DNA from: Faecalibacterium prausnitzii
GTDB lineage: Bacteria; Bacillota; Clostridia; Oscillospirales; Ruminococcaceae
Direction of reading: 5' to 3'
NCBI RefSeq assembly: GCF_003287495.1
Contig: NZ_PRLE01000007.1
Location: 62,001 to 126,000 of the forward strand
DNA length: 64,000 nt
Part shown: one piece after another, positions 1,598-20,517 of the stretch
Numbering within the stretch: the first letter of the stretch is position 1
Layout of the letters: the number at the start of each line of letters is the position of its first letter
Notes under the pieces: model-generated
Database searches by the model: none
What the model was told of the DNA's origin: nothing
Seen by the model: only the letters and a program-made list of their open reading frames with translations
Translations under genes and position numbers: made by a program

Positions 1598-2284
1598 ATG
1601 AAGTACTTCCTGGACAGCGCAAAACTCGATGAGATCAAGCTCGCTTACAACACCTTTGGCATTGACGGCGTTACCACCAACCCCCGCCACATCATGCTGA
1701 GCGGCAAGCCGTTCCTGACGGCCATTACCGACATCGCCAACTGGATCAAGGAAGAGGGCCTGGAGGGCTACGAGAAGTTCCCCGTCTCCGTGGAGATCAA
1801 CCCCCATCTGGACGACACTGAAGAGATGATCGCCGCCGCAAAGAAAGTCTCCGCCATCAGCGAGAACTTCGTCATCAAGATCCCCTGCACCGAGGCTGGT
1901 GTGGCTGCTGCCCGCCGCCTGGAGAAAGAGGGCATCCGCACCAACGTGACGCTGGTGTTCAGCCCGGCACAGGCCATCTGGCCCGCAAAGAACGGCTCCC
2001 TCTTCGTTTCTCCGTTCCTGGGCTGGAAAGAGGCCAACGGTGAGGACTGCAAGCAGTACATCAAGGACATCGTGGATATCTATAAGAACTACGGCTTCTA
2101 CGGCAAGACCCAGATCATCTGCGCAGCCATCCGCACCCCCAAGCAGATCGTGGACTGCGCGGTGGCAGGTGCCGACATCGTTACCACCGGCCTGGCCGTC
2201 TATCAGGACGCCATCAAGCACGCTTACACCCGCCAGGGCATTGAGACGTTCATCAATGCATGGGATAACACCGTGACGGAGTAA
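1598..2284 (+). CDS. sftT: Small transaldolase, probable 6-deoxy-6-sulfofructose transaldolase
   Basis: A 228-residue protein of the short transaldolase/fructose-6-phosphate aldolase class I family (TIM barrel). The start 'MKYFLDSAK' and the motif 'DGVTTNP' are typical, and Lys94 in 'FVIKIPCT' fits the Schiff-base lysine. ATG 1598 is preferred because AGGAG at 1584-1588 is 9 bases away; an ATG at 1592 is only 3 bases from it. Alone this could be any aldolase of the family. Next to a DUF4867 isomerase and a GH31 sulfoquinovosidase, it is best read as the sulfo-transaldolase that splits sulfofructose to sulfolactaldehyde and moves the C3 unit to glyceraldehyde 3-phosphate, giving fructose 6-phosphate (also called SqvA in bacilli). 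It is the first gene of the operon. Confidence 0.85.
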   Translation: MKYFLDSAKLDEIKLAYNTFGIDGVTTNPRHIMLSGKPFLTAITDIANWIKEEGLEGYEKFPVSVEINPHLDDTEEMIAAAKKVSAISENFVIKIPCTEAGVAAARRLEKEGIRTNVTLVFSPAQAIWPAKNGSLFVSPFLGWKEANGEDCKQYIKDIVDIYKNYGFYGKTQIICAAIRTPKQIVDCAVAGADIVTTGLAVYQDAIKHAYTRQGIETFINAWDNTVTE

Positions 2285-2330
2285 GCGGAACACAAAGCAG
2301 CGAGTGAGCAGGAGCAAAAGGAGAAGCACT

Positions 2331-3188
2331 ATGAAAATCGGCTTTATCGGTCTGGGCATCATGGGCGAGTCCATGTGCGAAAACATTGTCAAGAAGCATG
2401 ACGACACCGTCTACTGCTTCGATTTCATCCCCGCAAAAGTGGAGCTGCTGGCCTCCAAGGGCGCGGTTCCCTGCAAGGACTCGGTGGAGCTGGCCGAGAA
2501 GTCCGACGTCATCATCTCGATGGTGCCCAAATCCGAGCACTCCATGAGCGTGTACAAGACCATCCTCCCGGTGCTGGGCGCGGGAAAGACCTGCATTGAT
2601 ATGTCCACCATCGATCCCAGCGTCTCGGTGGAGATCAGCAAGATGGTCAAGGCCACGGGCGCTGCATTCATGGACGCTCCTGTCGTCAAGAGCAAGCCCG
2701 CCGCCATTGCCGGCAAGCTGGGCATCTACATGGGCGGCGACGAAGCCACCTGCGAGGCCATGCGCCCCATCCTCGCTTACATGGGCGAGAACATCATCCG
2801 GATGGGTGATAACGGCAAGGGCCTGGTCATGAAGATCTGCCACAACGCACTGGTCACGCAGATCCAGAACGGCGTCAACGAGACCCTTTCTCTGGCACAG
2901 CTCAACGGTATTTCGGTGGAAGACTATGCAACGGCTATCTCCTACGGCGGCGGCCAGAACTTCTATCTGGACGGCCAGTGGCAGAAGCTGCGGGATGAGG
3001 ACTATACCACCGCGTTCTCTCTGGCCAACGCCGCCAAAGATGTGGGCATCTGCATGAACCTGGCGAAAGAGTGCGGCCTGGACATGCCCGGTGAGGCAAA
3101 CGTCAAGAAAGTTTACGACAAGGGCATGGAAGCCGGAATGGGCGGCGACGACTGGCGCTCGACCTTTAAACTGGTCCGGGGCCACTGA
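2331..3188 (+). CDS. Beta-hydroxyacid dehydrogenase, probable sulfolactaldehyde reductase
   Basis: A 285-residue protein of the 3-hydroxyisobutyrate/tartronate semialdehyde reductase family. The N-terminal Rossmann motif 'GFIGLGIMG' (residues 4-12) binds NAD(P)H, and Lys168 in 'GLVMKICHNAL' is at the catalytic lysine position. The family includes E. coli YihU, which reduces sulfolactaldehyde to dihydroxypropanesulfonate. The operon makes that the likely reaction here and would regenerate NAD+ during fermentation. I recall Arg123 as a sulfonate contact in YihU; the equivalent place in the 'DAPVVKSKP' segment holds Lys120, still a positive charge. ATG 2331 is chosen for its AAAGGAG ribosome site; an upstream GTG at 2304 lacks one. 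A carboxylate substrate such as tartronate semialdehyde is the alternative. Confidence 0.8.
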   Translation: MKIGFIGLGIMGESMCENIVKKHDDTVYCFDFIPAKVELLASKGAVPCKDSVELAEKSDVIISMVPKSEHSMSVYKTILPVLGAGKTCIDMSTIDPSVSVEISKMVKATGAAFMDAPVVKSKPAAIAGKLGIYMGGDEATCEAMRPILAYMGENIIRMGDNGKGLVMKICHNALVTQIQNGVNETLSLAQLNGISVEDYATAISYGGGQNFYLDGQWQKLRDEDYTTAFSLANAAKDVGICMNLAKECGLDMPGEANVKKVYDKGMEAGMGGDDWRSTFKLVRGH

Positions 3189-3206
3189 TAAAAGGGGAGT
3201 GCAGTG

Positions 3207-3881
3207 ATGGAAAATCGGTTAGAGCATCTGAATCAGGTCAACGATGTCCCGGTGCACAGCGTGCTGGATCCGGAATTCGTCTCCTATGGCCGGGTGGTCA
3301 CGGGCTATGATTTCAGTGAGATGATCGCCTACATGGAGCAGAACACCCCCATCCCGGAAAATGGCAACACCTATGTTGCAAGCGTGCCCGAGATGGAAGC
3401 CCTGGCCGTGAGTGCCGAGGTGCAGAAAAAATTCTACGGCGACATGCCCATTGAAGTGGGCTACTGCAATGGCCGCAATACCACCTGGAACGGCTTTGAG
3501 TATCACAAGGGCAGCGAGATCAATGTGGCTGTCACGGATTTCATGCTGATTTTGGGCCATGTGTGGCAGATCGAGGACAACACCTACCGGTTTGAGAACG
3601 CAAAAGTCTTCTTTGTGCCCAAGGGCACGGCGGTGGAGATGTACCAGACCACGCTGCATCTCTCGCCCTGCCGGGTCTGCGATGCAGGCTTCAAGGGCGT
3701 GGTCATCCTGCCGCGGGGCACGAACACCCCGCTGGACGAGAAGACCCCTAACGGCGACCCGGAGAGCAAGCTGCTGCTCCAGCGAAATAAGTGGGTCATT
3801 GCACACCCGGAGCGGGAGCCGCTCATCAAGCAGGGCGCTTACCCCGGCCTGCTGGGCGAGAACAAGGAGCTCCACTATTAA
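3207..3881 (+). CDS. sftI: DUF4867 protein, probable sulfoquinovose isomerase
   Basis: A 224-residue protein that I recognise as the DUF4867 type, shown in bacilli and gut Firmicutes to interconvert sulfoquinovose and sulfofructose (SftI, also called SqvD). The region 'YHKGSEINVAVTDF' followed by 'LGHVWQIEDN' and 'TLHLSPC' gives the spaced His and Glu residues expected of a cupin-like metal site; that metal role is inferred. The ribosome site GGGGA at 3195-3199 suits ATG 3207; a GTG just before it is less likely. The gene sits between the dehydrogenase and the glycosidase with short gaps, so it is almost certainly co-transcribed. This family is the most specific marker that the operon uses the transaldolase route rather than the Entner-Doudoroff route. 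Confidence 0.85.
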   Translation: MENRLEHLNQVNDVPVHSVLDPEFVSYGRVVTGYDFSEMIAYMEQNTPIPENGNTYVASVPEMEALAVSAEVQKKFYGDMPIEVGYCNGRNTTWNGFEYHKGSEINVAVTDFMLILGHVWQIEDNTYRFENAKVFFVPKGTAVEMYQTTLHLSPCRVCDAGFKGVVILPRGTNTPLDEKTPNGDPESKLLLQRNKWVIAHPEREPLIKQGAYPGLLGENKELHY

Positions 3882-3909
3882 AGGGCCGAATGGCTGAGAA
3901 AGGGCAACC

Positions 3910-5919
3910 ATGGAGATCATTTGCAAAGACCGGGTCTTTACCCTGAAAAACGGCGGCGATGTGCTGCTGCATACCGACGCCAACACCCCGATGGTTTATG
4001 TCGGCTACGGCGAAGAGCGTGTGGAGATGTACCGCGGCAACTTCAAGCTGGAAGATCACCTGCTGGAGCGCCGCCCCCTGACCCTGACTTCTGCCCGGGT
4101 GACAGAGCAGGGAATAGAGCTGGATCTTGAGGGCCAGCTCAAGCTGCTGGTCACCGAGAAAGAGGGCGCTGTCACCCTGACGGTGGCGGAAAAAGCCGAG
4201 GGCATCAACCGCTTTTGGCTGCATGTGGAAGCGGCCGAGGACGAGCATGTCTACGGCTGCGGCGAGCAGATGAGTTACTTTGATCTGCGGGGCCGCCACT
4301 TCCCGCTGTGGTCCAGCGAGCCGGGTGTTGGCCGCGACAAAACGACCTACGTTACCTGGCGCAGCGACGTGGAAAACGGCGGTGCGGGCGGTGATTATTA
4401 CAACACCAATTACCCGCAGCCGACCTACGTTTCCAGCCGCCATTATTACCTCCACATGGATACCACGGCTTACGGGGATTTCGATTTCCGCAACCCGCGC
4501 TACCATGAGCTGCAGTGCTGGAATGTGCCGGGCTTTATCCGCATCGAAGCCGCCCCCACATTCGTGGAGCTGCTGGAAAAGCTGACCGCGTTCCTGGGCC
4601 GCCAGCCGGAGCTGCCGGAGTGGATCTACAACGGCCTCATCATCGGTGCCCAGGGCGGCAACGAGCGTAGCTTTGGCATCGTGGACAAGAGCCTGGAGCA
4701 CGGAATCAAGGTCTCCGGCCTGTGGTGCCAGGACTGGTGCGGCAAGCGGGTGACGAGCTTTGGCAAGCGCCTGCAGTGGGACTGGCATTTCCACAAGGAA
4801 ATGTACCCCGACCTGCCCAAACACATTGAAGAACTCCACGCCCGGGGCATCAAGTTCCTGGGTTACGTCAACCCCTACCTCGTCAACGATGGCGAGCTCT
4901 ACGCCGAGGGCAAAAAGCGGGGCGTCTTCGCCAAAAAGGCGGATGGCTCCGATTACCTGGTGGACTTTGGCGAGTTCTACTGCGGCGTGGTGGATTTCAC
5001 CAACCCCGAGGCCTACAACTGGTTCAAAGATGAGGTCATCAAAAAGTATACGCTGGACATTGGCATCGACGGCTGGATGGCAGACTTTGGCGAGTATCTC
5101 CCCACCGACGATCTGGTGCTGGCAAACGGCGTCAGCCCGATGATCGAGCACAACCACTGGCCGGTGCTGTGGGCAAAATGCAACTACGACGCCGTCAAAG
5201 AGAGCGGCAAGCTGGGGCAGGTGGTCTACTTCATGCGGGCCGGCGGCACGGGCAGCCAGAAATACTGCACCCTGCTGTGGGCCGGTGACCAGAGCGTGGA
5301 TTTCAGCCGCCACGACGGCCTGTGCACCGTCATCTGCGCGGCACTGAGCTCCGGCATGGTCGGCTGCGGCCTCAACCACTGCGACATCGGCGGCTACACC
5401 TCGCTGTTTGACAACTGCCGCACCAAGGAGGTCTTCCTCCGGTGGGCGGAGATGGCAGCCTTTATGCCCGTGATGCGCACCCACGAAGGCAACCGCCCCG
5501 ACACCAATTTCCAGTATTACGACGATGACGACTGCATGAAGCAGCTGGCACGTCTGGTGGATATCTACACCATGCTGGCACCCTACACCAAAACGCTGGT
5601 GGCGGAAAACGCCGCCAAGGGCACCCCGGTCATGCGGCCCCTCTTCCTCCAGTACGAGGACGACCCCCGCAGCTATACCGAGCAGTTCGAGTACCTCTAC
5701 GGTCCGGACCTGCTGGTGGCTCCGGTGTGGCAGAGCGGCAAGACGGAGTGGGAGGTCTACCTGCCCAGCGACGAGTGGACCCATCTGTGGACGGGCGAAC
5801 ACTACGCCAAGGGGACCCATATCGTTCCGGCGGAACTGGGCGATACCCCGGTGTTCTGCCGCAAGGGTTCCCAGTGGGCGGAGCTGTTTGACAGCATCCG
5901 TGCAAAGTACGGGAAGTAA
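3910..5919 (+). CDS. yihQ: GH31 sulfoquinovosidase (cytoplasmic)
   Basis: A 669-residue GH31 glycosidase, close in length and sequence to E. coli YihQ. The diagnostic block 'TSFGKRLQW' supplies Arg287 and Trp290, matching YihQ Arg301/Trp304, which bind the sulfonate. Tyr496 in 'CDIGGYTSLF' matches Tyr508. The catalytic nucleophile is Asp392 in 'GWMADFGEYLP' and the acid/base is Asp460 in 'WAGDQSVDF'. Spacings between these residues agree with YihQ to within one position. There is no signal peptide, so the enzyme works inside the cell on imported sulfoquinovosides, releasing SQ and, from the plant lipid headgroup, glycerol. It lies 28 bases after the isomerase gene. I regard the sulfoquinovosidase assignment as very secure because ordinary alpha-glucosidases lack this motif. 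Confidence 0.96.
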   Translation: MEIICKDRVFTLKNGGDVLLHTDANTPMVYVGYGEERVEMYRGNFKLEDHLLERRPLTLTSARVTEQGIELDLEGQLKLLVTEKEGAVTLTVAEKAEGINRFWLHVEAAEDEHVYGCGEQMSYFDLRGRHFPLWSSEPGVGRDKTTYVTWRSDVENGGAGGDYYNTNYPQPTYVSSRHYYLHMDTTAYGDFDFRNPRYHELQCWNVPGFIRIEAAPTFVELLEKLTAFLGRQPELPEWIYNGLIIGAQGGNERSFGIVDKSLEHGIKVSGLWCQDWCGKRVTSFGKRLQWDWHFHKEMYPDLPKHIEELHARGIKFLGYVNPYLVNDGELYAEGKKRGVFAKKADGSDYLVDFGEFYCGVVDFTNPEAYNWFKDEVIKKYTLDIGIDGWMADFGEYLPTDDLVLANGVSPMIEHNHWPVLWAKCNYDAVKESGKLGQVVYFMRAGGTGSQKYCTLLWAGDQSVDFSRHDGLCTVICAALSSGMVGCGLNHCDIGGYTSLFDNCRTKEVFLRWAEMAAFMPVMRTHEGNRPDTNFQYYDDDDCMKQLARLVDIYTMLAPYTKTLVAENAAKGTPVMRPLFLQYEDDPRSYTEQFEYLYGPDLLVAPVWQSGKTEWEVYLPSDEWTHLWTGEHYAKGTHIVPAELGDTPVFCRKGSQWAELFDSIRAKYGK

Positions 5920-5922
5920 GCT

Positions 5923-6681
5923 ATGCGGAATCAGATCCTGTTTTACATCGTCATTCTGCTGACGAACATCATCCACGGCATCACGGGCTTCGCGGGCACC
6001 ATCTTAGCCATGCCGCCCAGCCTGATGCTGGTGGGCTACGATATCGCAAAGCCAATTTTAAATGTGCTGGCCATCTTCTCCGGCGTGTATGTTTTTGTGG
6101 GCAACTACAAAAAGATCGCCTGGAAAGAGCTGGCCAAGATCGTGGTGGTCATGGCACTGGGCATCTTTGGTGCCGTGTTCATCAAAGGGCTGTTCGTTGG
6201 CAAAGAGCACCTGCTCTACAAACTGCTGGGCCTGCTGGTCATCGGGCTTTCGGTACAGGGCTTTTACAAGCTCGTACACAAGCCGGACGCCAAAACAGAA
6301 CCGCCTGCGGAGGAGCAGGGAAGCAAAGGCAATGTCGGCACCTATGCACTGCTGGTGCTGGCCGGTATCATCCACGGGCTGTTCGTCAGCGGCGGCCCGC
6401 TGCTCACCGGTTACATGACCAAGCGCATCAAAGACAAAACCGTCTTCCGCGCTACCATTTCCACAGTGTGGGTCTTCCTCAACACCCTCGTCTTCCTGGA
6501 GGATGTCCAGGCGGGGCTGTGGGTACCCTCCACGGTGAAAATGCTGGCCATCTCGGTGCCGTTCCTGCTGGCGGGCATGTTCATCGGCAGCAAGCTGGTG
6601 GCCCGCATGAGCCAGCTGGTCTTTATGAAGCTGACCTATATTCTGTTGTTTATTTCGGGGCTTTCGCTTCTGGTGAAGTGA
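5923..6681 (+). CDS. TauE/SafE family exporter, probable sulfonate exporter
   Basis: A 252-residue, very hydrophobic protein with about eight membrane segments and the duplicated TauE/SafE architecture: 'HGITGFAGT' in the first half and 'HGLFVSGGPLL' in the second. This family exports sulfite, sulfoacetate and related C2-C3 sulfonates. It starts 3 bases after the sulfoquinovosidase stop codon, so translation is probably coupled. In sulfo-transaldolase operons a TauE-like protein commonly carries out the end product, here DHPS or a derivative of it. The charged loop around residues 125-140 separates the halves. The substrate is inferred from context only. Confidence 0.85.
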   Translation: MRNQILFYIVILLTNIIHGITGFAGTILAMPPSLMLVGYDIAKPILNVLAIFSGVYVFVGNYKKIAWKELAKIVVVMALGIFGAVFIKGLFVGKEHLLYKLLGLLVIGLSVQGFYKLVHKPDAKTEPPAEEQGSKGNVGTYALLVLAGIIHGLFVSGGPLLTGYMTKRIKDKTVFRATISTVWVFLNTLVFLEDVQAGLWVPSTVKMLAISVPFLLAGMFIGSKLVARMSQLVFMKLTYILLFISGLSLLVK

Positions 6682-6750
6682 CCCCCCGTGAAAAGCGCAA
6701 ACCGAACATCTACAAACAAGAAAAAGAGAAATGTGAAGGAGAACACTACT

Positions 6751-7833
6751 ATGAAACGTCGTGAATTTCTGTCCATGAGCGCTGTTCTGGCTGCTTCCGG
6801 TATCCTGGCAGGCTGTGCCGCTTCCAATGCAGGCAGCACCAGCACCGCGGCTTCCACGGCTGGCTCTACCGCGGCTTCCGAGGAGCCCAGCAACGGCGGC
6901 GAGACCATTAAGATCATCTGCCCCTACGGCGTCGGCGGCACCGCTGATATCGTGGCCCGCAAATATGGACAGGTGGCAAACCAGACCCAGAAGAAGTACA
7001 ACTTCATCGTGGAGAACATGACCGGCGGCGACGGTTTCGCCGCAGCCACCTACTTTGCTGATGACAGTACCTCCGTGGCAAAAGAGCTGCTGGTCTTTGG
7101 CTATGGCGTCTGCTACCGCCATGATCTGGGCAAAGAGTTCGGCACCGAGGAAGTGGATTTTGACCGTGATGCCATGTATCCCATCGGCACCATTGATGAC
7201 CGTACCTGGATCGTGTACACCACGCCCGACCAGACGCTGGCTTCCATTCTGGAAAAGGCCAAGAACGGCGGCATCAAGATGTCCGGCGGCAACCCCCTGT
7301 CCGACTGCCATCTGTCCTGGGGTTCCCTGATCGCCATGGAGGGCGGCAAGGTATCCGTGGTTCCGTATGACGGCGGTGCAAACCAGAAAAAGGGCCTGAC
7401 CGACGGCGAGGTCGATGTCTTCGTCGGCACCACCCAGGCTGCCAAGGACGAGGTCGAGGCTGGTACCCTGATCCCCATTCTGGCCATGAACGACCGCGCG
7501 TTCGAGGGCTTCGTCACGCCGTCCGGCCCCATTACCGTCCCCACCTGCGCAGGCGATTCCAAGGCTCCGGAACTGAACCCGGCCAACGATTATGAGTCCT
7601 GCATCCTGCCCGCTGGCGGCGTGCTGGCAGCCCACAAGGGCGCCGACCAGACATTCATCGACGAGATGATTGAGATCACCAAGGATGTCTGGAATGAACC
7701 CGAGTTCAATGAGTGGATCGCTTCCATCCTGTTGAACCGCTTTGAAGTTTATGGCGACGAGGCAGAGGCTTTTATCAATGAGGCTTGCGAGAAAGCCATC
7801 AATGCTTACAAGAACCTGAGCGGTCAGGCCTAA
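6751..7833 (+). CDS. tctC: TctC-type solute-binding lipoprotein of a tripartite transporter
   Basis: A 360-residue lipoprotein. The N-terminus 'MKRREFLSMSAVLAASG' is followed by a lipobox ending 'LAGC' (Cys22), then a Ser/Thr/Ala-rich linker to about residue 50 and a Bug/TctC-type periplasmic-binding fold. The twin Arg could also make it a Tat substrate. It captures the ligand outside the cell for the TctB/TctA permease encoded downstream. Family members usually bind carboxylates, but a related system imports 3-sulfolactate. Inside this operon an anionic sulfosugar or its glyceryl glycoside is the likely ligand, and no other SQ importer is visible. ATG 6751 follows an AAGGAG site; the frame extends further up without one. 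Confidence 0.88.
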   Translation: MKRREFLSMSAVLAASGILAGCAASNAGSTSTAASTAGSTAASEEPSNGGETIKIICPYGVGGTADIVARKYGQVANQTQKKYNFIVENMTGGDGFAAATYFADDSTSVAKELLVFGYGVCYRHDLGKEFGTEEVDFDRDAMYPIGTIDDRTWIVYTTPDQTLASILEKAKNGGIKMSGGNPLSDCHLSWGSLIAMEGGKVSVVPYDGGANQKKGLTDGEVDVFVGTTQAAKDEVEAGTLIPILAMNDRAFEGFVTPSGPITVPTCAGDSKAPELNPANDYESCILPAGGVLAAHKGADQTFIDEMIEITKDVWNEPEFNEWIASILLNRFEVYGDEAEAFINEACEKAINAYKNLSGQA

Positions 7834-7850
7834 ACCTGAAGCATAGAAAT

Positions 7851-7924
7851 AAGTGCCGCATCGGTCACGTTTCGCATGAACCTTGTGCTGACGGGCTGCC
7901 GGTGCAGCTCGTCGGCACTTTTTA
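7851..7924 (+). terminator. Intercistronic hairpin between tctC and tctB
   Basis: AAGTGCCG (7851-7858) pairs with CGGCACTT (7913-7920), followed by TTTATT. The loop is long (54 nt) and may fold further. It sits inside the operon, so it probably acts as a partial terminator or 3'-end protector that keeps the binding protein more abundant than the permease. Confidence 0.6.
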
Positions 7925-7988
7925 TTAATTGGCAAAGAAACTTGGGAAACCGATGTCGGTTTACCGTACGAAAGGAGAACGAATTTCG

Positions 7989-8465
7989 ATGAAGAAATTC
8001 AAGATCAAGACCAATCTGGTCTCGGGCGTTATTATGGGAGTGGCCGCACTGCTCCTCATTATCCTGCTGCCCAGTCAGGTCCGCGTGCCGGCCTTTGATT
8101 CCGGTGCCCCCAGTCCCCGCATCATCCCCGGTATCTGCCTGGCGATTATGCTGGTTTCGTCCATCGCCCTCATCATCCAGAGCCTTGTCCTCAAGCAGGA
8201 AAAGATCGTGGAATTCGACTGGGCAAAAGAAAAGCCCGCCATCCTCCTCATTCTTGGCATGTGCGTGTATATCGGCCTGATGCTCTGCATTGGCTATGTG
8301 CTGGCGTCTCTGATCGTTTTCCCACTGGCGCTGTTCTACGTGGGCGAGCGCAAGCCCGGCCCCTACATCGTGGTTTTGGTTTCGGCCTTTGCCATCTTCC
8401 TGCTGTTCAAGAACGTCTTTAACATTTCGCTGCCCGCTCTGGGCCTGTTGGGAGGGATCATCTGA
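7989..8465 (+). CDS. tctB: TctB-type small membrane subunit
   Basis: A 158-residue protein with about four membrane helices, the usual size and shape of the small permease subunit of tripartite tricarboxylate transporters. Its first helix is 'VSGVIMGVAALLLIILL', and further hydrophobic blocks start near residues 47, 77 and 90. The start at 7989 is set by AAAGGAG at 7971-7977. The stop codon TGA shares its A with the ATG of tctA, so the two permease subunits are translationally coupled. The gene follows an intercistronic hairpin, which suggests lower expression than tctC. Confidence 0.88.
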   Translation: MKKFKIKTNLVSGVIMGVAALLLIILLPSQVRVPAFDSGAPSPRIIPGICLAIMLVSSIALIIQSLVLKQEKIVEFDWAKEKPAILLILGMCVYIGLMLCIGYVLASLIVFPLALFYVGERKPGPYIVVLVSAFAIFLLFKNVFNISLPALGLLGGII

Positions 8466-10015
8466 TGTCGGATTTTGCATTGATTTCGCAGGCTATCCCG
8501 CAGGTGTTCACTGTTTACAACATGCTGCTCATCTTCGGCGGCCTGATCCTGGGCATGGTCATTGGCTGTGTGCCCGGCCTGAGCGTTACCCTGGGCATCA
8601 TCCTGATGCTGCCCCTGACCTATACGTTCGATGACCCGGCTTCCGCCATCATCCTGCTGCTGGCCGTTTACGTCGGCGGCATGTACGGCGGCTCCATTTC
8701 CGCCATTACCCTGAACACCCCGGGCACCAACTCCGCCATCGCCACCACCTTCGATGGCTACCCTCTGGCGAAAAAGGGCAAGGTCAAAAAAGCTCTGGAT
8801 ACCTCGCTGTTCGCTTCCGTGTTCGGCGGCCTGTTCTCGGCAGTGTTGCTGCTGCTTTGCGCTTCCCTTATCACCAAGCTGGTGGCAAACTTCACCTCCG
8901 TGGAGTACTTCTCCCTGGGCATCATGGGCATCAGCCTGATCGCCGGTGTTTCCGGCAGCAGCCTGCCCAAGAGCCTCATCTCTGGTATGATCGGCCTGCT
9001 GATGGCCTGCATCGGTATGGATGCCGTCACCGGCGTCACCCGCTTCTCCTTTGGCTCGGCAACTCTGAAATACGGCATTGATATGCTGCCCGCCATGATC
9101 GCTCTTATCGCTCTGACCCAGGTGGTGCAGAAACTGCGTGATTTCAAAGTCGCCGGCGGCAAGCTGGACGACGCCCGCAAGATCGACAAGCAGGGCATCA
9201 CCAAGAAAGAAATGGTCAGCATCCTGCCCGCCTGCCTGCGTTCTTCCACGATCGCAAGCGTTCTGGGCGCAATGCCCGGTGTCGGCGGCGGTGTGGCACA
9301 GTTCCTCTGCTACAACGAGGTTCGCCGCACTTCCAAGCACCCCGAAGAGTTCGGCAAAGGCTGCCTGGAGGGCATCGCTGCCGCCGAATCTTCCAACAAC
9401 GCGGTCGTTGGCTCCGCTATGATCCCTCTGCTGACGCTGGGCATCCCCGGTGATGGCGTTACCGCTCTGCTGCTGGGCGCGTTCGTGCTCCACGGCATCC
9501 AGCCCGGCCCCACCATGTTCACCAAGCAGGGCGTCATGGCCTATACCATTATCATCGGCTGCCTGGTCGCTAATGTGTTGCTGGCTCCTCTGGGCCTTGG
9601 CATGACCCGTCTGGTGGCCAAAATCGTGCAGGTGCGCTACACCTATCTGGCTCCCGTCATCATCATGTTCTGCTTTGCAGGTGCATTTGCAGCCACCGGC
9701 AACACCAAAGAGCTGATCATCTGCGCAGGCATCCTGATCTTCAGCTACATCCTGACGGTTCTGGACATTGATAACACCCCGCTGATGCTGGGCATGATCC
9801 TGGAAGACATCATGGAGCAGAACTTTGTCACCGCTTCCATGAGCTATGACCGCAACTACAGCATCTTCATTACCCGCCCCATCTCCGCAGTCATCCTCAT
9901 CATCACCGTGGTACTGCTGGTCTCCATGATCCGGGTCAACCGCCGTGTGGCCAAGCTGAACGAGCAGCAGGAGGCCCAGATGGCCGCCGAGCACGCAAAG
10001 ATGGAGAACGCATAA
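8465..10015 (+). CDS. tctA: TctA-type large membrane subunit
   Basis: A 516-residue polytopic protein with the family's characteristic N-terminal region: 'GLILGMVIGCVPGLS', then 'MYGGSISAITLNTPGT', a motif typical of TctA. About eleven to twelve membrane helices are visible. It forms the transport channel with TctB and takes ligand from the TctC lipoprotein, driven by an ion gradient. It is the last gene of the sulfoquinovose operon and is followed by a strong terminator at 10056. Because the glycosidase is cytoplasmic, this transporter is the best candidate to import intact sulfoquinovosyl glycerol or SQ. Confidence 0.92.
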   Translation: MSDFALISQAIPQVFTVYNMLLIFGGLILGMVIGCVPGLSVTLGIILMLPLTYTFDDPASAIILLLAVYVGGMYGGSISAITLNTPGTNSAIATTFDGYPLAKKGKVKKALDTSLFASVFGGLFSAVLLLLCASLITKLVANFTSVEYFSLGIMGISLIAGVSGSSLPKSLISGMIGLLMACIGMDAVTGVTRFSFGSATLKYGIDMLPAMIALIALTQVVQKLRDFKVAGGKLDDARKIDKQGITKKEMVSILPACLRSSTIASVLGAMPGVGGGVAQFLCYNEVRRTSKHPEEFGKGCLEGIAAAESSNNAVVGSAMIPLLTLGIPGDGVTALLLGAFVLHGIQPGPTMFTKQGVMAYTIIIGCLVANVLLAPLGLGMTRLVAKIVQVRYTYLAPVIIMFCFAGAFAATGNTKELIICAGILIFSYILTVLDIDNTPLMLGMILEDIMEQNFVTASMSYDRNYSIFITRPISAVILIITVVLLVSMIRVNRRVAKLNEQQEAQMAAEHAKMENA

Positions 10016-10055
10016 GCAAATCTTAACATACGACAATTTCTCTCTCCTTCCATTG

Positions 10056-10090
10056 GCGGGGCCGGGAACGCGCCCGGTCCCGCATTTTTT
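10056..10090 (+). terminator. Rho-independent terminator after tctA
   Basis: An 11-bp GC-rich stem (10056-10066 with 10073-10083, one wobble pair) is followed by six T bases. It closes the first operon, so the next gene depends on read-through or on an unrecognised promoter. Confidence 0.85.
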
Positions 10091-10157
10091 GGGAGAGAAC
10101 ATCAAAAACAAAACCAGAAATTAAGAGAGTAAAAAGCAATAAAAGGAGTAATTGATT

Positions 10158-11498
10158 ATGAGTTTTCAGGTAGCTTATGTGCCCATCGGTGTTGGTACGT
10201 TCCATCTGGAGAGTGCACAGGATCAGTTTGAAAAATCCATTGCCATGCTCAAGGGCCTGAATGCGGACTGCACCGTGCCCGAGAAAATGCTGCTGACCAT
10301 CAACGATCTAGACGCATACCTCGATACCCTCAACCCCGACCTCATCGTGCTGCAGAACATCACCTTTGCCAACGCCGCTTACGCCAGCGAGGTGCTCAAG
10401 CGCTTTGCCTGCCCCATTGTGCTGTGGACCCTGCGGGAGCCGGTCATCGACGGTACCCGCCTGCGCCTCAACAGCCTGACGGGCGCTTACTCCGCCGGCA
10501 ACGCCATCACGGCGTTCCGGGGCGAGGGCAAGTTTGAGTATATCTTTGGTGCCCCCGGCGAGGCCGAAGTGGATCGGGAAGTGGGCGCTGCCATCCGTGC
10601 CGCCAAGGTCAAGTACGACCTGCGCCGCCTCAAGATGATCTCCATTGGCCACACGCCCCAGGGCTTCGGCTTTGGCCGCGCGCTGGACGCTGAGATGATG
10701 AGCACCTTTGGCACCACGCTGGATTCCATCGAGGCCCGTGAGCTCATCAACAAGGCCAAGGGTTACACCGAGGAGGAGCTGGCCGACGAGCTGGCTGAGG
10801 CCCGCAAGACCATTGTTGGCCTGGAGGCCATCCCGGAAAACAACGTGGTCAACTTTGCCCGCCTCTATAAGGCTTATAAGAGCTATGTGGGCGAGAACCA
10901 CATCGGGGCCCTCTGCTCCCGCTGCTGGCCGGATTTCTTCACCGAGTTTGGTACCCCCGTGTGCAGTGTGCTCTCCCTGCTCAACGCCAACGGCGTTTCC
11001 GCCAGCTGCGAGTCCGACGCCTACGGCGCCCTCTCCATGTTCATTGGCAGCGACCTGACCAGCCGTTCCTGCTTCTTCGGCGACCCCGTCTCCATGAACG
11101 AGAAAGAGGGGACCATCACGTTCTGGCACTGCGGCATGGCTGCCTGTGACCTGGCCCGCAAGGATACCGGCGCGCAGGTGGGTGTCCACCCCAACCGCAA
11201 GATCGGCCCCGTTATGGACTTTGGCTGTGAGGCCTGTGAGCATGTCACCATCTTCCGTGTGGGCCGCAAGCCGGACGGCAGTTTCCGCTTCTTCATCGCG
11301 GAGGGTTCCGCACTGGACAAGCCCAAGCAGTTCAACGGTACCTCCGTGGTCGTCAAGACCGTGGAAAGCGCCAAGGATGTCGTCTATGGCACCGTCAAGG
11401 GCGGCTGGGAGCCCCACTTTGTGGTGGTGTACGGCCAGGTGGCCAACGAGCTGGAAAAGCTGGGCAACATGCTGGGCGTGGAAGTCTGCAAATTCTGA
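10158..11498 (+). CDS. L-fucose/L-arabinose isomerase-like protein
   Basis: A 446-residue protein with the two-domain fold of the fucose isomerase superfamily. The N-terminal domain has 'LIVLQNITFANAAYASEVL' and 'CPIVLWTLREP'. The C-terminal half has the catalytic-type elements 'CSRCWPDF', 'CESDAYGALSMF' and 'TFWHCGMAA', where Glu, Asp and His would hold the metal. AGGAG at 10144-10148 sets ATG 10158. The bases TAATTGATTA just before the start match part of the operator at 1452. It lies inside the sulfoquinovose island but apart from the first operon. It may isomerise a second sugar or act on an SQ analogue; the exact substrate is unknown. True L-fucose isomerases are longer, so I do not call it FucI. 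Confidence 0.75.
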   Translation: MSFQVAYVPIGVGTFHLESAQDQFEKSIAMLKGLNADCTVPEKMLLTINDLDAYLDTLNPDLIVLQNITFANAAYASEVLKRFACPIVLWTLREPVIDGTRLRLNSLTGAYSAGNAITAFRGEGKFEYIFGAPGEAEVDREVGAAIRAAKVKYDLRRLKMISIGHTPQGFGFGRALDAEMMSTFGTTLDSIEARELINKAKGYTEEELADELAEARKTIVGLEAIPENNVVNFARLYKAYKSYVGENHIGALCSRCWPDFFTEFGTPVCSVLSLLNANGVSASCESDAYGALSMFIGSDLTSRSCFFGDPVSMNEKEGTITFWHCGMAACDLARKDTGAQVGVHPNRKIGPVMDFGCEACEHVTIFRVGRKPDGSFRFFIAEGSALDKPKQFNGTSVVVKTVESAKDVVYGTVKGGWEPHFVVVYGQVANELEKLGNMLGVEVCKF

Positions 11499-11543
11499 AA
11501 TCCTAAAACAGAAAACAATCGCCTTGAAATAAGCAACTTTCTC

Positions 11544-11572
11544 TTGCTACTATGAAAAACACGGAGTATACT
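11544..11572 (+). promoter_or_regulatory. Promoter of the ROK regulator
   Basis: TTGCTA at 11544-11549 and TATACT at 11567-11572 are 17 bases apart. The tandem repeat begins at the end of the -10 box, a position suited to autorepression. Confidence 0.6.
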
Positions 11573-11636
11573 TGATTTAAGTAAATTTAAGCAACTGAGA
11601 ATGCTTGATTTAAGTGAATTTAAGGAACGGAGAATG
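11571..11636. repeat. Tandem 33-bp direct repeats, likely operators of the ROK repressor
   Basis: Units 11571-11603 and 11604-11636 differ at only a few bases. Each carries CTTGATTTAAGT, then a TTTAAG arm, so each unit is itself partly palindromic. They lie between the -10 box and the start codon of the ROK gene. The TTGATT...AA theme resembles the operator palindrome at 1452-1476, which links the repressor to the sulfoquinovose operon. Confidence 0.7.
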
Positions 11637-11668
11637 CTTGCCAGATGTACAGGGAAAGAGGTGTGGAG

Positions 11669-12877
11669 ATGGCATACAGCGGCCTGAACCTCGGAAACGT
11701 CAAAAACCAGAACCGCAGCTCCATTTTAAAGCTGCTGAACGACCACGGCCCCATGCCGCGCAAGGATCTTTCGGCCCGGCTGGGCCTGACCCCGGCTAGC
11801 CTGACTACCCTGTGCGGAGAGCTGCTGGCCCAGAACATTCTGTTTGAGCTGGGCGAGGTACAGCAGGAGGATAAACGCGCCGGGCGGCGCAAGATCCTGC
11901 TGGGCATCAATTACGCCTACCGCCATGTCCTCTCCATCAGCATCGAGGCCCCCGCCACCAGTGTCACCCTGTGTGACCTGCGGGGAGAGCACTGCATCAC
12001 CCGCCGTATCCCCACGGATACCAGCGTGGAGCCGGAGTTGTTTTTAAAGCGGGTGGCCAATGTGGGCAAAGCCCTGCTCTGGGAAAACAGCATCGGCAGG
12101 GAAGAGCTGCTGGGGGCGGGCGTTTCGGTGCCCGGCCCGGTGGACCGGGAAAAGGGCGTCAGCACCCACGCTTACCGCGTCTGGGATCAGCCCGTGCAGG
12201 TAACTGCCCCGCTGGCTGAGGCACTGGAGTGTACCGTGCTGCTGGAAAACAACGTCAAGGCCTTTGCCCAGGCCGAGCTGACTTATGGCCTGGGGCGGAC
12301 GGAGGAAAACCTGCTGCTGCTCAAATGGGGCCCCGGCGTGGGCTCCGCCATCATTGCGCAGGGCCGTATCTATGAGAGCCGGATGTACAAATCGGCGGAG
12401 ATCGGCCATGTGCGGGTGGAAAAGAACGGCAGGCTCTGCCGCTGCGGGCGGCACGGCTGCCTGGAAACGCGGGTGGCCAGCCACCCCATTGCCCGCCATC
12501 TGCGGCAGGTGTGCAGCCCGGAAACGACCCCGCTGCTGTGGGCTGCCGTGGGCGGCAGGCCCGAGAACATTACCGTGCACAATCTGGACACCCTCGCCGC
12601 GCTGGACGAACCGGCCATGTGGGAGGCGCTGGATGCGGACATTGAGGTGCTGGCCGATGTGGTGGGCGGCTGCCTGACCATGCTCACGCCGGATCATCTG
12701 ATCCTGTACGGGTATATGTTCAAGCTGCCGCACTTCCGGGAAAAATTCCTCGCCGCCTGCAAGCGGTACGACCCCGCCTACGACGAAAATTATATCCGTG
12801 TCTCAGAACTGGCTGAAAAGCTGGAATACATCGGGCCGCTGGCGGTTGTGACCAACGAGCTGTTTTATCAGGGCTGA
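11669..12877 (+). CDS. ROK-family transcriptional repressor
   Basis: A 402-residue protein with an N-terminal winged helix-turn-helix (residues about 10-65, including 'NRSSILKLLN' and 'PMPRKDLSARLGLTPASL') and a C-terminal sugar-kinase-like ROK domain. The ROK zinc site is visible as 'EIGHVRV' followed by 'CRCGRHGCLE'. Such proteins release DNA on binding a sugar or sugar phosphate. The gene is preceded by tandem operator-like repeats and lies in the middle of the sulfoquinovose genes, so it is the likely specific repressor. I place the start at ATG 11669, after GAGG at 11659-11662; an in-frame ATG at 11645 would add eight residues. The inducer (SQ, sulfofructose or another sugar) cannot be read from sequence. 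Confidence 0.88.
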   Translation: MAYSGLNLGNVKNQNRSSILKLLNDHGPMPRKDLSARLGLTPASLTTLCGELLAQNILFELGEVQQEDKRAGRRKILLGINYAYRHVLSISIEAPATSVTLCDLRGEHCITRRIPTDTSVEPELFLKRVANVGKALLWENSIGREELLGAGVSVPGPVDREKGVSTHAYRVWDQPVQVTAPLAEALECTVLLENNVKAFAQAELTYGLGRTEENLLLLKWGPGVGSAIIAQGRIYESRMYKSAEIGHVRVEKNGRLCRCGRHGCLETRVASHPIARHLRQVCSPETTPLLWAAVGGRPENITVHNLDTLAALDEPAMWEALDADIEVLADVVGGCLTMLTPDHLILYGYMFKLPHFREKFLAACKRYDPAYDENYIRVSELAEKLEYIGPLAVVTNELFYQG

Positions 12878-14503
<1,626 letters not shown>

Positions 14504-14504
14504 C

Positions 14505-15632
14505 ATGGACCGTGCAGAAGACGGACGCCTCCGGTTTTTCTCGGAGCTGTCGGAGCACCAGATCTCAGCCGATGAGTTTTTCAACGTGGTCCTGCTGGAC
14601 TCGCTGGCCCGGAATTTCGGGCTGCAAAATGTGCTCATCTCCTACTTTGATCCGCAGGGCAATTTCCTCTCCTGGACCCACCGCAACGGGGTGCTGGCCG
14701 ATTGCGAGGAGCACCCTTACCGCCGCTGCCAGCCGGCCGACGTGGTGCGCCAGACGCTGTACCGGGAGGCCGTGCAGGATAAACTGACCTACAACAACGT
14801 CACGCCCCGGCTCTACCACTCCACCAAACTCATCCCGCCGGAGGATTATGAGCAGAGCAGCTATGTGCGTTTTCTCGAAGAAAATTTTGGGGCCCTCTAC
14901 AGCGTGACCATGGCCTTTGGCATCAACGCGTATATTCAGGTGGCGTTTTTCAAGAGCCGGGAAGAGGGCGATTTCACGCCCGAGGAGCTGAGCCAGCTGG
15001 AACAGATTTACGTTTACATCGCCAACGATTACAAAAACTTCAAGAAATACGAGCAGGCCAAGATCATCTCCAACATCCAGAGCGAGATCATCCTCTCGGG
15101 GGAAAAAGCCTATCTCGTCACGGACGATTTCATGCACATCATGAGCTGCAACCACGCGGCAAAGGTCTGCCTGGATGATATCCTGGGCGGGGCTGCCGAT
15201 GGGTTGGATGGAAGCAGGCCCTGCAGCTGGCTCCCGTTTTTGCTGGGCAGTGAGCTGGGCCACGCCGAAAACCGGGTGCAGACCCGGGTCATCCGGGACT
15301 ATATTTTCAAAATTTACACCTACGACCAGCGCTATTCCAACGGCATTGTGGACCGCTACCACTGGATCACCATTGCCCGGGCGGAGCAGCCTGCGGCAGC
15401 TGGCAAAAACAGCGAGGCCCTGCCCGCGGGCACCGGACAGCCCCTGACCAAAGCGGAGCTGCGGGTGGCCCGCCTGCTGGCCAAGGGCCTGACCTATCAG
15501 GCGGTGGCGGATAAGCTGGTGGTGAGCTACCACACCGTGAAGAAACATGTGCAGAATATCTACCTCAAGTGCGGGGTGAACTCCCGGTTCCAGCTCTACC
15601 GCTGGATGGAACAGAACGATCCGAAAAAGTGA
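14505..15632 (+). CDS. LuxR-type transcriptional regulator with an N-terminal sensor region
   Basis: A 375-residue protein. The C-terminal 65 residues form a LuxR/GerE helix-turn-helix ('LTKAELRVARLLAKGLTY' followed by 'VSYHTVKKHVQNIY'). The preceding 300 residues have no receiver phosphorylation site. They look like a GAF/PAS-like sensor that I cannot place. The start codon is one base after the glpK stop, so the regulator is translated with the kinase. The next transcript begins with a palindrome at 15722 and contains the glycyl radical enzymes, so this regulator may control that operon in response to glycerol or a sulfonate. It could also be a repressor or act on glpK itself. Confidence 0.82.
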   Translation: MDRAEDGRLRFFSELSEHQISADEFFNVVLLDSLARNFGLQNVLISYFDPQGNFLSWTHRNGVLADCEEHPYRRCQPADVVRQTLYREAVQDKLTYNNVTPRLYHSTKLIPPEDYEQSSYVRFLEENFGALYSVTMAFGINAYIQVAFFKSREEGDFTPEELSQLEQIYVYIANDYKNFKKYEQAKIISNIQSEIILSGEKAYLVTDDFMHIMSCNHAAKVCLDDILGGAADGLDGSRPCSWLPFLLGSELGHAENRVQTRVIRDYIFKIYTYDQRYSNGIVDRYHWITIARAEQPAAAGKNSEALPAGTGQPLTKAELRVARLLAKGLTYQAVADKLVVSYHTVKKHVQNIYLKCGVNSRFQLYRWMEQNDPKK

Positions 15633-15661
15633 CTCCTGAGACAGAAAAGAAGATCTCCCGT

Positions 15662-15710
15662 AAAATGCTGGGTGGAGCGCCGGAAACGGCTGCTCTGCCC
15701 GGCATTTTTT
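15662..15710 (+). terminator. Rho-independent terminator after the LuxR-type gene
   Basis: AAATGCTGGG... (from 15663) pairs, with wobble pairs, with ...CCCGGCATT, ending at 15706. The hairpin is long, has an inner stem, and is followed by a run of T. It ends the glpK-regulator transcript. Confidence 0.85.
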
Positions 15711-15721
15711 GTGCCATAAAA

Positions 15722-15739
15722 ATAGGGAATGTTCCCTAT
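15722..15739. promoter_or_regulatory. Perfect 18-bp palindrome upstream of the glycyl radical operon
   Basis: ATAGGGAA-TG-TTCCCTAT is a perfect palindrome overlapping a TATATAAAA stretch that could be the -10 region (TATAAA at 15739-15744). No good -35 box is visible, so the promoter may need an activator, or the palindrome may be a repressor site over the core promoter. The LuxR-type protein encoded just upstream is the natural candidate to bind it. Confidence 0.6.
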
Positions 15740-15838
15740 ATAAAATCAGCCTGTTGTCCACTGTTTCTGAGAGGCGGCATCTGTTAGAATCAAGCCAGAA
15801 ACGATCAGAGAAATAAACTGGGAAAGGAGGCTGGCAAT

Positions 15839-16804
15839 GTGACGGAAACGGGCATCGTGTTCAACGTCCAGCGTTTTACCATTCACGACGGCCCCGGGAT
15901 GCGGACGGAGTTCTTTTTAAAGGGCTGCCCGCTGCGGTGCCAGTGGTGCTCCAACCCCGAAAGCTGGGCCCCGCAGCCCCAGGTGGGGGTTTACCGGACC
16001 AAATGCATCGGCCGCAAAGTCTGCGGCGGGTGTGAGGACAGCTGCCCGGAGGGAGACATCTTCCGCTTTACGGCGGGCAAGCTGGCGGGCATTGACCGGA
16101 CAAAATGCACGGACTGCCTGGCCTGCTACGAGGAATGCCCCTCCGACGCGCTCAAGCAGTGGGGCAGGCAGATGACGGTGGAGGAGTGCATGGAACTCAT
16201 CCGCCGGGATCAAGGCTACTACGAGCGCTCGGGCGGCGGCGTGACCGTCTCGGGCGGGGACCCGCTGGTCCAGAGCGATTTTGTGGAGGCCCTCTTCCGC
16301 GCCTGCAAGGCGGAGGGCTACCACACCTGCTGTGAGTCCACGTTCTGTGCCAGCTGGTCGGAGGTGGAAAAGGTTCTGCCCTATACCGACCTCATCATCT
16401 CGGACCTCAAGCTGATGGATTCTGCCCTCCACCGCCAGTATACCGGGGTGGGCAACGAACTCATTCTGCAAAACCTCCGCCGCCTGGCACAGGAGGGGCG
16501 GGAGCTCATCCTCCGCATCCCGGTCATCCCGGGGGTCAACGATGGGCGGCAGAACATCGAGGCCAGTGCGGATTTTATCCTCAGACAGCTGGGCGGGCAG
16601 GTGCGAACCCTGCAGCTTTTGAGTTTTATGCGGCTGGGCGAGGAAAAATACAAATCACTGGGGATCCCGTATCAGATGGAAGCTGTGCGCCTGCAGCGCC
16701 GGGCGTTCCAGCGGCGGGTAGAAGAAATTGCAAGGTATTTCAACAGCCGGGGCATCCACTGCCTCGTAGGCACCAAAGAAAAAGAAGAGAGTCAACCGGA
16801 ATAA
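15839..16804 (+). CDS. Glycyl radical enzyme activating enzyme (radical SAM)
   Basis: A 321-residue radical SAM activase. 'CPLRCQWC' near residue 31 is the CxxxCxxC site for the SAM cluster. Two further four-cysteine ferredoxin-type clusters follow ('CIGRKVCGGCEDSCPEG' and 'CTDCLACYEECPSD'), as in activases of dehydratase-type glycyl radical enzymes and not in the pyruvate formate-lyase activase. 'GGGVTVSGGDPL' is the SAM-binding Gly motif. It installs the glycyl radical on the enzyme encoded next. The start is GTG 15839, 8 bases after AAAGGAGG; the overlapping ATG at 15837 is followed directly by a stop codon. Oxygen sensitivity is expected. Confidence 0.95.
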   Translation: MTETGIVFNVQRFTIHDGPGMRTEFFLKGCPLRCQWCSNPESWAPQPQVGVYRTKCIGRKVCGGCEDSCPEGDIFRFTAGKLAGIDRTKCTDCLACYEECPSDALKQWGRQMTVEECMELIRRDQGYYERSGGGVTVSGGDPLVQSDFVEALFRACKAEGYHTCCESTFCASWSEVEKVLPYTDLIISDLKLMDSALHRQYTGVGNELILQNLRRLAQEGRELILRIPVIPGVNDGRQNIEASADFILRQLGGQVRTLQLLSFMRLGEEKYKSLGIPYQMEAVRLQRRAFQRRVEEIARYFNSRGIHCLVGTKEKEESQPE

Positions 16805-19368: not shown

Positions 19369-20517
19369 ATGAAAGACTTCAACTTCAAAATTCCGCAGAA
19401 CATCCAGTTTGGCATGGGCAGCCTGAAAAAGCTGCCGGAGATCCTGGCCGAGAACCACTCTGACAACATCCTGCTGGTGTCGGACCGCGGGCTGGAAAAG
19501 ATCGGTGTCGTCAAAAAAGTACAGGATATCATTGAGGCGGCCGGACTCAAGTGCACCAGTTATCTGGACGTGGTGCCCAACCCCACCGTGGCCGTGGTCA
19601 ATGAGGCAACAGCCCTGTACAAGGAGTGTGGTGCTACCAGCATCGTGGCCCTGGGCGGCGGCAGCTCCATGGATGTGGGCAAGGCCGTGGGTGTGCTGGT
19701 CAACTATGGCGGCAAGATCACCGATTACGAGGGCAACCACAAGGTGCCCGGCCCCATCGTGCCCATGATCGCCATTCCCACCACGGCAGGTACCGGCAGT
19801 GAGGTGACCGCCTCTGCCGTCATCACGGACACGGAGCGCAACTACAAGCTCTCGGTCTTCAGCTATGAGATCCTGCCCAAGTACGCCGTGCTGGACCCGG
19901 AGCTCATCATGACGGCCCCGGCTTCCATTGCCGCTTCCTGCGGTGTGGATGCCCTCATCCACGCCATGGAGGCTTATGTTTCCCGCAACGCCACCCCGTT
20001 TTCCGATGCCATGGCGGAAAAGGCCATGGAGCTGATTGGCGGCAACCTGCGCCGCTTTGTGGCAAACCGCCAGGATGAAGAGGCAGCCTGTGCCATGATG
20101 CTGGGCTCCAACTTTGCGGGCATCTCCTTTGCCTGGGCCCGTCTGGGCAATGTCCACGCCATGAGCCACCCGGTGAGCGCCTACTTCAACGTGCCCCACG
20201 GTGTGGCAAACTCCATCCTGCTGCCCAATGTGGTGGAGTACAACGCTCTGGCCGACCATGGCCGCTATGAGGTCATCTACAACTACATCCGGGAGGGCAA
20301 TGGCCCCATCGAAAACTTTACCCCGGATATGCTGGTGGAGGAGCTGCGCCATCTGAACGAACAACTGGGCATCCCGGCTACCCTGTCGGAAGTGGGCGTG
20401 ACGGCGGATAAGATCCCCGCCATGGCCGAGGACGCCATGAAGAGCGGCAACATTCCCGCCAACCCCCGCCAGAGCACGGTGAAGGATATCATCAAGCTGT
20501 ACGAGAAGACCATGTAA
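19369..20517 (+). CDS. Iron-dependent alcohol dehydrogenase (1,3-propanediol or sulfopropanal reductase type)
   Basis: A 382-residue group III alcohol dehydrogenase. 'ALGGGSSMDVGKAVG' binds NAD(P), 'IPTTAGTGSEVT' is a family signature, and the metal ligands are the Asp and His in 'GVDALIHAMEAY' plus the His residues in 'NVHAMSHPVSAY' and 'VPHGVANS'. It is 28 bases downstream of the glycyl radical dehydratase and would reduce the aldehyde made by that enzyme to a primary alcohol, oxidising NADH. The product would be 1,3-propanediol if the dehydratase uses glycerol, or 3-hydroxypropanesulfonate if it uses DHPS. Either way it is an electron sink. Confidence 0.9.
   Translation: MKDFNFKIPQNIQFGMGSLKKLPEILAENHSDNILLVSDRGLEKIGVVKKVQDIIEAAGLKCTSYLDVVPNPTVAVVNEATALYKECGATSIVALGGGSSMDVGKAVGVLVNYGGKITDYEGNHKVPGPIVPMIAIPTTAGTGSEVTASAVITDTERNYKLSVFSYEILPKYAVLDPELIMTAPASIAASCGVDALIHAMEAYVSRNATPFSDAMAEKAMELIGGNLRRFVANRQDEEAACAMMLGSNFAGISFAWARLGNVHAMSHPVSAYFNVPHGVANSILLPNVVEYNALADHGRYEVIYNYIREGNGPIENFTPDMLVEELRHLNEQLGIPATLSEVGVTADKIPAMAEDAMKSGNIPANPRQSTVKDIIKLYEKTM

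Follow-up and report, generated by a model that had tools for sequence, protein, structure and literature searches.

Few organic sulfur compounds are more abundant than sulfoquinovose (SQ), the sulfonated sugar found in green leaves; in the gut it is a selective nutrient and feeds the formation of hydrogen sulfide. How SQ enters the cell is the question raised by a 64,000-nucleotide stretch of Faecalibacterium prausnitzii DNA (contig NZ_PRLE01000007.1, positions 62,001 to 126,000; here, the window), in which the three genes of a tripartite tricarboxylate transporter (TTT), tctC, tctB and tctA (tctCBA; positions 6751 to 10015, + strand), lie within an SQ degradation operon. The initial annotation had proposed that this system imports SQ or SQ-glycerol. 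Our comparison of gene content and neighborhoods supports this proposal: tctCBA is very probably a TTT importer of sulfoquinovose and/or sulfoquinovosyl-glycerol. Four independent lines of evidence point to this cargo, namely, the exclusive association of tctCBA with SQ genes across species, its replacement within the genus by a permease of the glycoside-pentoside-hexuronide (GPH) type, its conservation across clusters with different products, and its occurrence in species that are reported to grow on SQ.

As the initial annotation had also stated, tctCBA is the only importer in the SQ operon; we found no second transporter gene for uptake there, and no GPH symporter (TIGR00792) was detected in the window cluster. 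In a genome-wide search, the best homologue of an SftA-type permease was 32% identical, and the best match to the binding protein of an SQ-type ATP-binding cassette (ABC) importer was 28% identical. With nothing above 32% identity, we ruled out that an SftA-like or SQ-type ABC importer is hidden elsewhere in the genome.

The open reading frames at positions 6751 to 7833 (tctC), 7989 to 8465 (tctB) and 8465 to 10015 (tctA), all on the + strand, reproduced the annotated coordinates exactly. The large membrane subunit TctA, the only TctA encoded in the 2.68-Mb genome, matched PF01970 over the whole model with 447 bits (cut-off, 28.9), as expected of a TTT large subunit. The small membrane subunit TctB matched PF07331 with 51 bits (cut-off, 29.1) and has about four hydrophobic, membrane-spanning segments by hydropathy, in line with a TTT small subunit. 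TctC is a lipoprotein binding protein with a signal peptide and an LAGC lipobox (Cys22), and is the proposed receptor for SQ or SQ-glycerol. Its N terminus (positions 6751 to 6820) starts with MKRREFLSMSAVLAASGILAGC, a twin-arginine-like lipoprotein signal; the orthologues have ordinary Sec-type signals. TctC scored 21.8 bits against PF03401, under the cut-off of 27, and is thus a divergent member; this cut-off is a recognition threshold and not a defining biological feature of TctC proteins. When a profile of the TctC orthologues was searched against the PDB, all matches were TTT binding proteins (TphC, E = 6e-12). An AlphaFold2 model of TctC (mean predicted local distance difference test score, 82) retrieved in Foldseek only TctC-family structures among its top 17 matches, with template modeling scores of up to 0.81. 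Furthermore, TctC carries PYGVGGTAD, which corresponds to the TTT loop motif PFxAGGxxD. Judged by its modeled fold and this motif, TctC is a TTT-type binding protein despite its sub-threshold Pfam score.

We scanned 84,980 species genomes with patterns from a TctC alignment, a search that would miss very distant relatives, and obtained 13 TctC relatives (58 to 75% identity), one of which (L052) is a contig of genome G121. In all 13, tctC adjoins the SQ isomerase gene sftI. The sulfoquinovosidase gene sftG is adjacent in each of the 11 relatives whose upstream side was covered; at the other two (L062 and L063), the contig ends on that side. The genes tctB and tctA follow tctC in 12 of the 13. 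The exception is L062, a contig of an Epulopiscium metagenome-assembled genome, on which orthologues of SftI, of a ROK-family regulator and of TctC stand consecutively (positions 1694 to 5388). The pattern scan of the 84,980 genomes found no TctC relative at the 58 to 75% level outside an SQ cluster; among viral contigs there were just a single fragment at 89% and a further, weak match. Together with the window, the same-genus genome G030, and two loci from a class-wide sample (L072 and L074), the relatives make up 17 clusters, among them those of Clostridium symbiosum ATCC 14940, Enterocloster clostridioformis AGR2157 and Oscillibacter species. Their conservation rules out that tctCBA is there as a chance neighbor. 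In G030 (L034), frame changes interrupt several genes, among them tctC, tctA, sftI and the ROK gene; these changes are probably sequencing errors, with gene decay as the alternative.

Within the genus, the importer changes while the rest of the operon stays. The sft operon of the window recurs in two genomes of the genus (G021 and G002), with the sulfofructose transaldolase SftT 89 to 90% and SftI 81 to 82% identical to the window proteins. In both, tctCBA is missing from the interval between the exporter gene sftE and sftI, of which about 30 bp are left, and a gene for an SftA-like GPH:cation symporter lies directly upstream of sftT. In the SftI tree, these two genomes grouped with the window and G030 (98/98 support) within a larger tctCBA-bearing group. 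Because of this nested position, the simplest history is that tctCBA was lost and the permease gained. At the level of sequence, the swap is the nearest equivalent of a natural complementation test. The next-best SftT match (G059; 47%) was found not to belong to an SQ cluster.

Genomes that had not been chosen by transporter gave a similar picture. Among 391 genomes of the class searched with SftI, there were four clusters; three carry tctCBA (the window, G776 and G579) and the fourth a GPH permease. A sample of 398 genomes of the phylum contained distant SftI relatives (31 to 53% identity), and at seven of the eight fetched loci we found ABC importer genes, with a GPH permease at the remaining one. 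Since tctCBA, GPH and ABC systems alternate among the SftI clusters, the importer is an interchangeable part of them. In one ABC-importer cluster (L076, positions 9865 to 14847), an SftI-like gene occurs twice; the two are divergent, at 51% and 40% identity to the window SftI.

The clusters with tctCBA differ downstream. In C. symbiosum, E. clostridioformis and the window, the genes specify the transaldolase route to 2,3-dihydroxypropanesulfonate (DHPS). In four other loci (L055, L059, L051 and L074), tctCBA is accompanied by genes for a transketolase, an RpiB-type isomerase and an iron-containing alcohol dehydrogenase, called by Pfam for L055 and L051 and by sequence likeness for L059 and L074; by its gene content, this set is the mark of the route to isethionate. 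The L074 cluster (positions 3221 to 16036) combines the transketolase-route genes with a sulfofructose transaldolase (61%) and tctCBA, and would thus be a bifurcated pathway. The partners that tctCBA shares in both routes are sftG and sftI, which act ahead of the split. Since tctCBA is common to the DHPS and isethionate clusters, its cargo should lie upstream of that split, and the shared SftG and SftI steps suggest, most simply, that it is SQ or an SQ glycoside. Among the neighbors are glycerol genes, for glycerol kinase (GlpK) in the window and for GldA or DhaK in L055 and L059. These genes and the cytoplasmic SftG favor SQ-glycerol as at least one cargo. In Eubacterium rectale, growth on SQ-glycerol has been reported, with a glycerol kinase in the cluster (PMC11968277).

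Two of the carrier species are reported to use SQ: C. symbiosum is described as expressing the transaldolase SQ pathway while growing with SQ (PMC8397734), and in E. clostridioformis, strain YL32 forms DHPS from SQ (PMC12330013). The sequenced genomes that we examined, the C. symbiosum type strain ATCC 14940 (L053) and E. clostridioformis AGR2157 (L054), are from strains other than those grown on SQ, and in both, tctCBA is within the SQ operon. A search of 12 genomes carrying tctCBA detected no SftA orthologue; the best GPH matches were at most 31% identical, and C. symbiosum had none. In the YL32 paper, SftA is drawn without a gene, although the enzymes have locus tags (PMC12330013). The five-tag gap in YL32 from SftI (09270) to the sulfoquinovosidase (09300) would fit tctA, tctB, tctC and tauE.

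We also compared the TctC proteins at their predicted pockets. The signature YRHD (residues 122 to 125), DDRT (149 to 152) and SGGNPLS[DE]xHL (178 to 188) was present in 15 of 15 TctCs from SQ clusters and absent from the 11 further TctCs of related bacteria with which they were compared. TphC binds its buried carboxylate through T155 and its other carboxylate through the region of the PFSAGGTAD loop (PMC8556258). The SQ-group TctCs keep the loop; at the T155 position they have Asp or, in 2 of the 15, Glu. An acid at this position would be suited to the hydroxyl groups of a sugar and would keep a second carboxylate away by repulsion. These pocket roles are predictions from the alignment.

Several points weigh against an SQ or SQ-glycerol cargo or limit how precisely it can be named. 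Nearly every characterized TTT ligand has a carboxylate and SQ has none (PMC5812351, PMC8556258). The pocket argument uses an alignment of about 17% identity and a ligand-free model, and on L062, TctC adjoins SftI yet no tctBA lies within 10 kb downstream. The genes and their order, the exclusive association with SQ genes, the replacement within the genus, the fold and the pocket signature are observations; from these we infer the ligand, what the pocket residues do, which way transport runs and how it is coupled to ions. The neighborhood cannot tell SQ from SQ-glycerol.

The nearest precedent for a different cargo is SlcHFG, a TTT for sulfolactate (PMC5812351, PMC10507020). By analogy, tctCBA might take up a short C2/C3 sulfonate (sulfolactate, DHPS or isethionate) for re-use, and HpfGHD, the probable DHPS-fermenting enzymes of this cluster, could treat external DHPS as an electron sink. 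However, the same system is found in clusters with DHPS and with isethionate as product, where it stands beside sftG and sftI rather than hpfGHD. Moreover, the operons would then be left without an SQ importer, with no SftA orthologue in the genomes tested, and the relatives swap tctCBA for an SftA-like permease. We therefore regard uptake of a short sulfonate as very unlikely. Import of the pathway end product was ruled out, as clusters with differing products have the same system.

It is hardly more plausible, and if anything slightly less so, that tctCBA imports di- or tricarboxylates like an ordinary TTT and that its position in the operon is incidental. Most known TTTs carry carboxylates and the TctC fold is the same, but in 17 clusters from several families a chance neighbor would not have kept its place between sftG and sftI. 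No enzyme of the clusters acts on a di- or tricarboxylate, and at the position of T155, with which TphC holds the buried carboxylate (PMC8556258), each of the 15 members has Asp or Glu. An exporter or exchanger for the sulfonate end product would help to explain four clusters (L050, L060, L072 and L074) that have tctCBA and in which no TauE-type exporter was seen. Most clusters, however, also carry the TauE exporter, and end products vary among clusters with the same TctC. TTT systems with a binding protein work as importers, and we consider export the least credible of these explanations, with almost no weight.

For import of SQ or SQ-glycerol, we propose the following course. The TctC lipoprotein would capture the sulfosugar outside the membrane, the conserved PYGVGGTAD loop probably gripping the sulfonate and polar residues including Asp185 the sugar hydroxyls. 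TctB-TctA would then carry it inward on an ion gradient, by analogy with other TTTs. In the cytoplasm, SftG would cleave SQ-glycerol, SftI and SftT would process the SQ, and GlpK would take the glycerol. Finally, DHPS, or 3-hydroxypropanesulfonate formed by HpfGHD, would be exported.

The genes around tctCBA, all on the + strand, are consistent with this course. The operon starts with sftT (positions 1592 to 2284; PF00923), whose best PDB match is the sulfofructose transaldolase BmSF-TAL (8bc3; E = 1.5e-86). It continues with sftR (2331 to 3188), for a protein of the sulfolactaldehyde reductase type (PF03446/PF14833; NCBIfam scores under the cut-offs), and sftX (3207 to 3881), for a DUF4867 protein (PF16161, 262 bits). 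DUF4867 was dropped as an SQ-cluster marker, since other sugar pathways contain it too; a search of the family with it gave 93 genomes. The GH31 sulfoquinovosidase SftG (3910 to 5919) scored 962 bits against NF007746 and matched PDB entries 6pnr and 8r56 and YihQ. It retains the QDW...KR..W stretch with which YihQ holds the sulfonate. By hydropathy, SftG has neither a signal peptide nor an N-terminal hydrophobic segment, which bears out the initial annotation of a cytoplasmic enzyme. A gene for a TauE/SafE-type exporter in the SftE role (5923 to 6681; PF01925) is directly upstream of tctC, and the SQ isomerase gene sftI lies at 10158 to 11498 (PF02952); SftI reached 414 bits against the equivalog model NF048012 (cut-off, 700), so that its name carries a caveat.

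Downstream are genes for the ROK-family regulator (11669 to 12877; PF00480) and for GlpK (13001 to 14503; TIGR01311, 730 bits, above the cut-off), which would allow use of the glycerol from SQ-glycerol. They are followed by genes for the DHPS dehydratase activating enzyme HpfH (15839 to 16804; NF048008, 551 bits), the glycyl radical enzyme HpfG, a DHPS dehydratase (16830 to 19340; NF048009, 1614 bits), both above cut-off, and an iron-containing alcohol dehydrogenase in the HpfD role (19369 to 20517; PF00465/PF25137). All enzymes of a transaldolase-type (sulfo-TAL) cluster are thus present, i.e., sulfoquinovosidase, SQ isomerase, sulfofructose transaldolase and sulfolactaldehyde reductase. This set and the hpfGHD genes together indicate an extended transaldolase-type SQ pathway. 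The HpfH, HpfG and HpfD-like genes after the SQ operon suggest that DHPS is probably fermented on to 3-hydroxypropanesulfonate.

Transcript signals frame the operon. A consensus sigma-70-type promoter, TTGACA-18-TATAAT (12 of 12 positions matching), lies at positions 1411 to 1440 and is followed, within 1452 to 1578, by two exact copies of the 19-bp AATTGATTAACACTTTTAA (1452 to 1470 and 1560 to 1578; + strand), the first of them palindromic. The repeat has no further copy in the 2.68-Mb genome and is the probable operator of the ROK regulator. A strong rho-independent-type terminator hairpin at 10056 to 10083 (folding z = -6.5; + strand) would end the sftT-tctA transcript. As annotated initially, tctCBA is located between the exporter gene and this terminator; to this we add that sftI is located past it. 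Between sftT and tctA on the + strand, no convincing promoter was found, with one 9-of-12 match within tctA. From the positions of promoter and terminator, a single transcript from sftT through tctA is likely. A second feature absent from the initial annotation is a terminator-like hairpin in the gap between tctC and tctB (7885 to 7918; folding z = -3.6; + strand), which is perhaps an attenuator giving an excess of TctC over the membrane subunits.

The window system shares with the TTT family (TctCBA; TphC, AdpC, MatC and Bug proteins) the C-B-A gene order, the TctA and TctB Pfam families, the TctC fold and the PxxxGGxxD loop. It differs in that its TctC is only about 17% identical to the solved members, falls under the Pfam cut-off, and has a private pocket signature and a presumed carboxylate-free ligand. 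SlcHFG resembles tctCBA in being a TTT with a link to a sulfonate pathway, but its cargo sulfolactate bears a carboxylate, whereas the window neighbors act on a C6 sulfosugar. The TTT for alginate oligosaccharides of Vibrio sp. C42 (PMC13390454) likewise links the uptake of an anionic sugar to a sugar pathway; alginate, however, is a polyuronate with carboxylates, and SQ and SQ-glycerol have a sulfonate only. The SftA/GPH-type permease, of the major facilitator superfamily, has the same role in the same operon and stands in for tctCBA in same-genus species, but is an unrelated single-subunit symporter (TIGR00792). SmoEFGH-type ABC importers also take up SQ glycosides with the help of a binding protein; they are ATP driven and unrelated to tctCBA, and ABC genes occur in SQ-isomerase clusters elsewhere in the phylum.

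Reported TTT substrates include citrate, C4-C6 dicarboxylates, terephthalate, nicotinate, sulfolactate and glucarate (PMC5812351), to which alginate oligosaccharides were added in 2026 (PMC13390454). The initial claim of a new substrate class therefore needs narrowing: sugar acids and alginate oligosaccharides are already reported as TTT cargo (PMC5812351, PMC13390454), and what would be new is a carboxylate-free sugar carried by its sulfonate. Our literature search found no TTT tied to SQ uptake, but a 2020 pathway paper on C. symbiosum (10.1016/j.isci.2020.101510) lay outside it, so that a prior mention is possible. We think it likely that tctCBA is the first TTT with a carboxylate-free natural substrate, a sulfonated sugar or its glycerol glycoside, and that it represents a distinct SQ-TTT lineage. 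This lineage would provide the principal SQ uptake system of many gut Clostridia, C. symbiosum and E. clostridioformis among them, and would be evolutionarily interchangeable with GPH and ABC importers. This makes tctCBA a candidate SQ uptake system for known gut degraders such as E. clostridioformis YL32. If true, the TTT family would be widened to a carboxylate-free substrate, and the tctCBA sequences would serve as a marker by which SQ uptake could be recognized in metagenomes.

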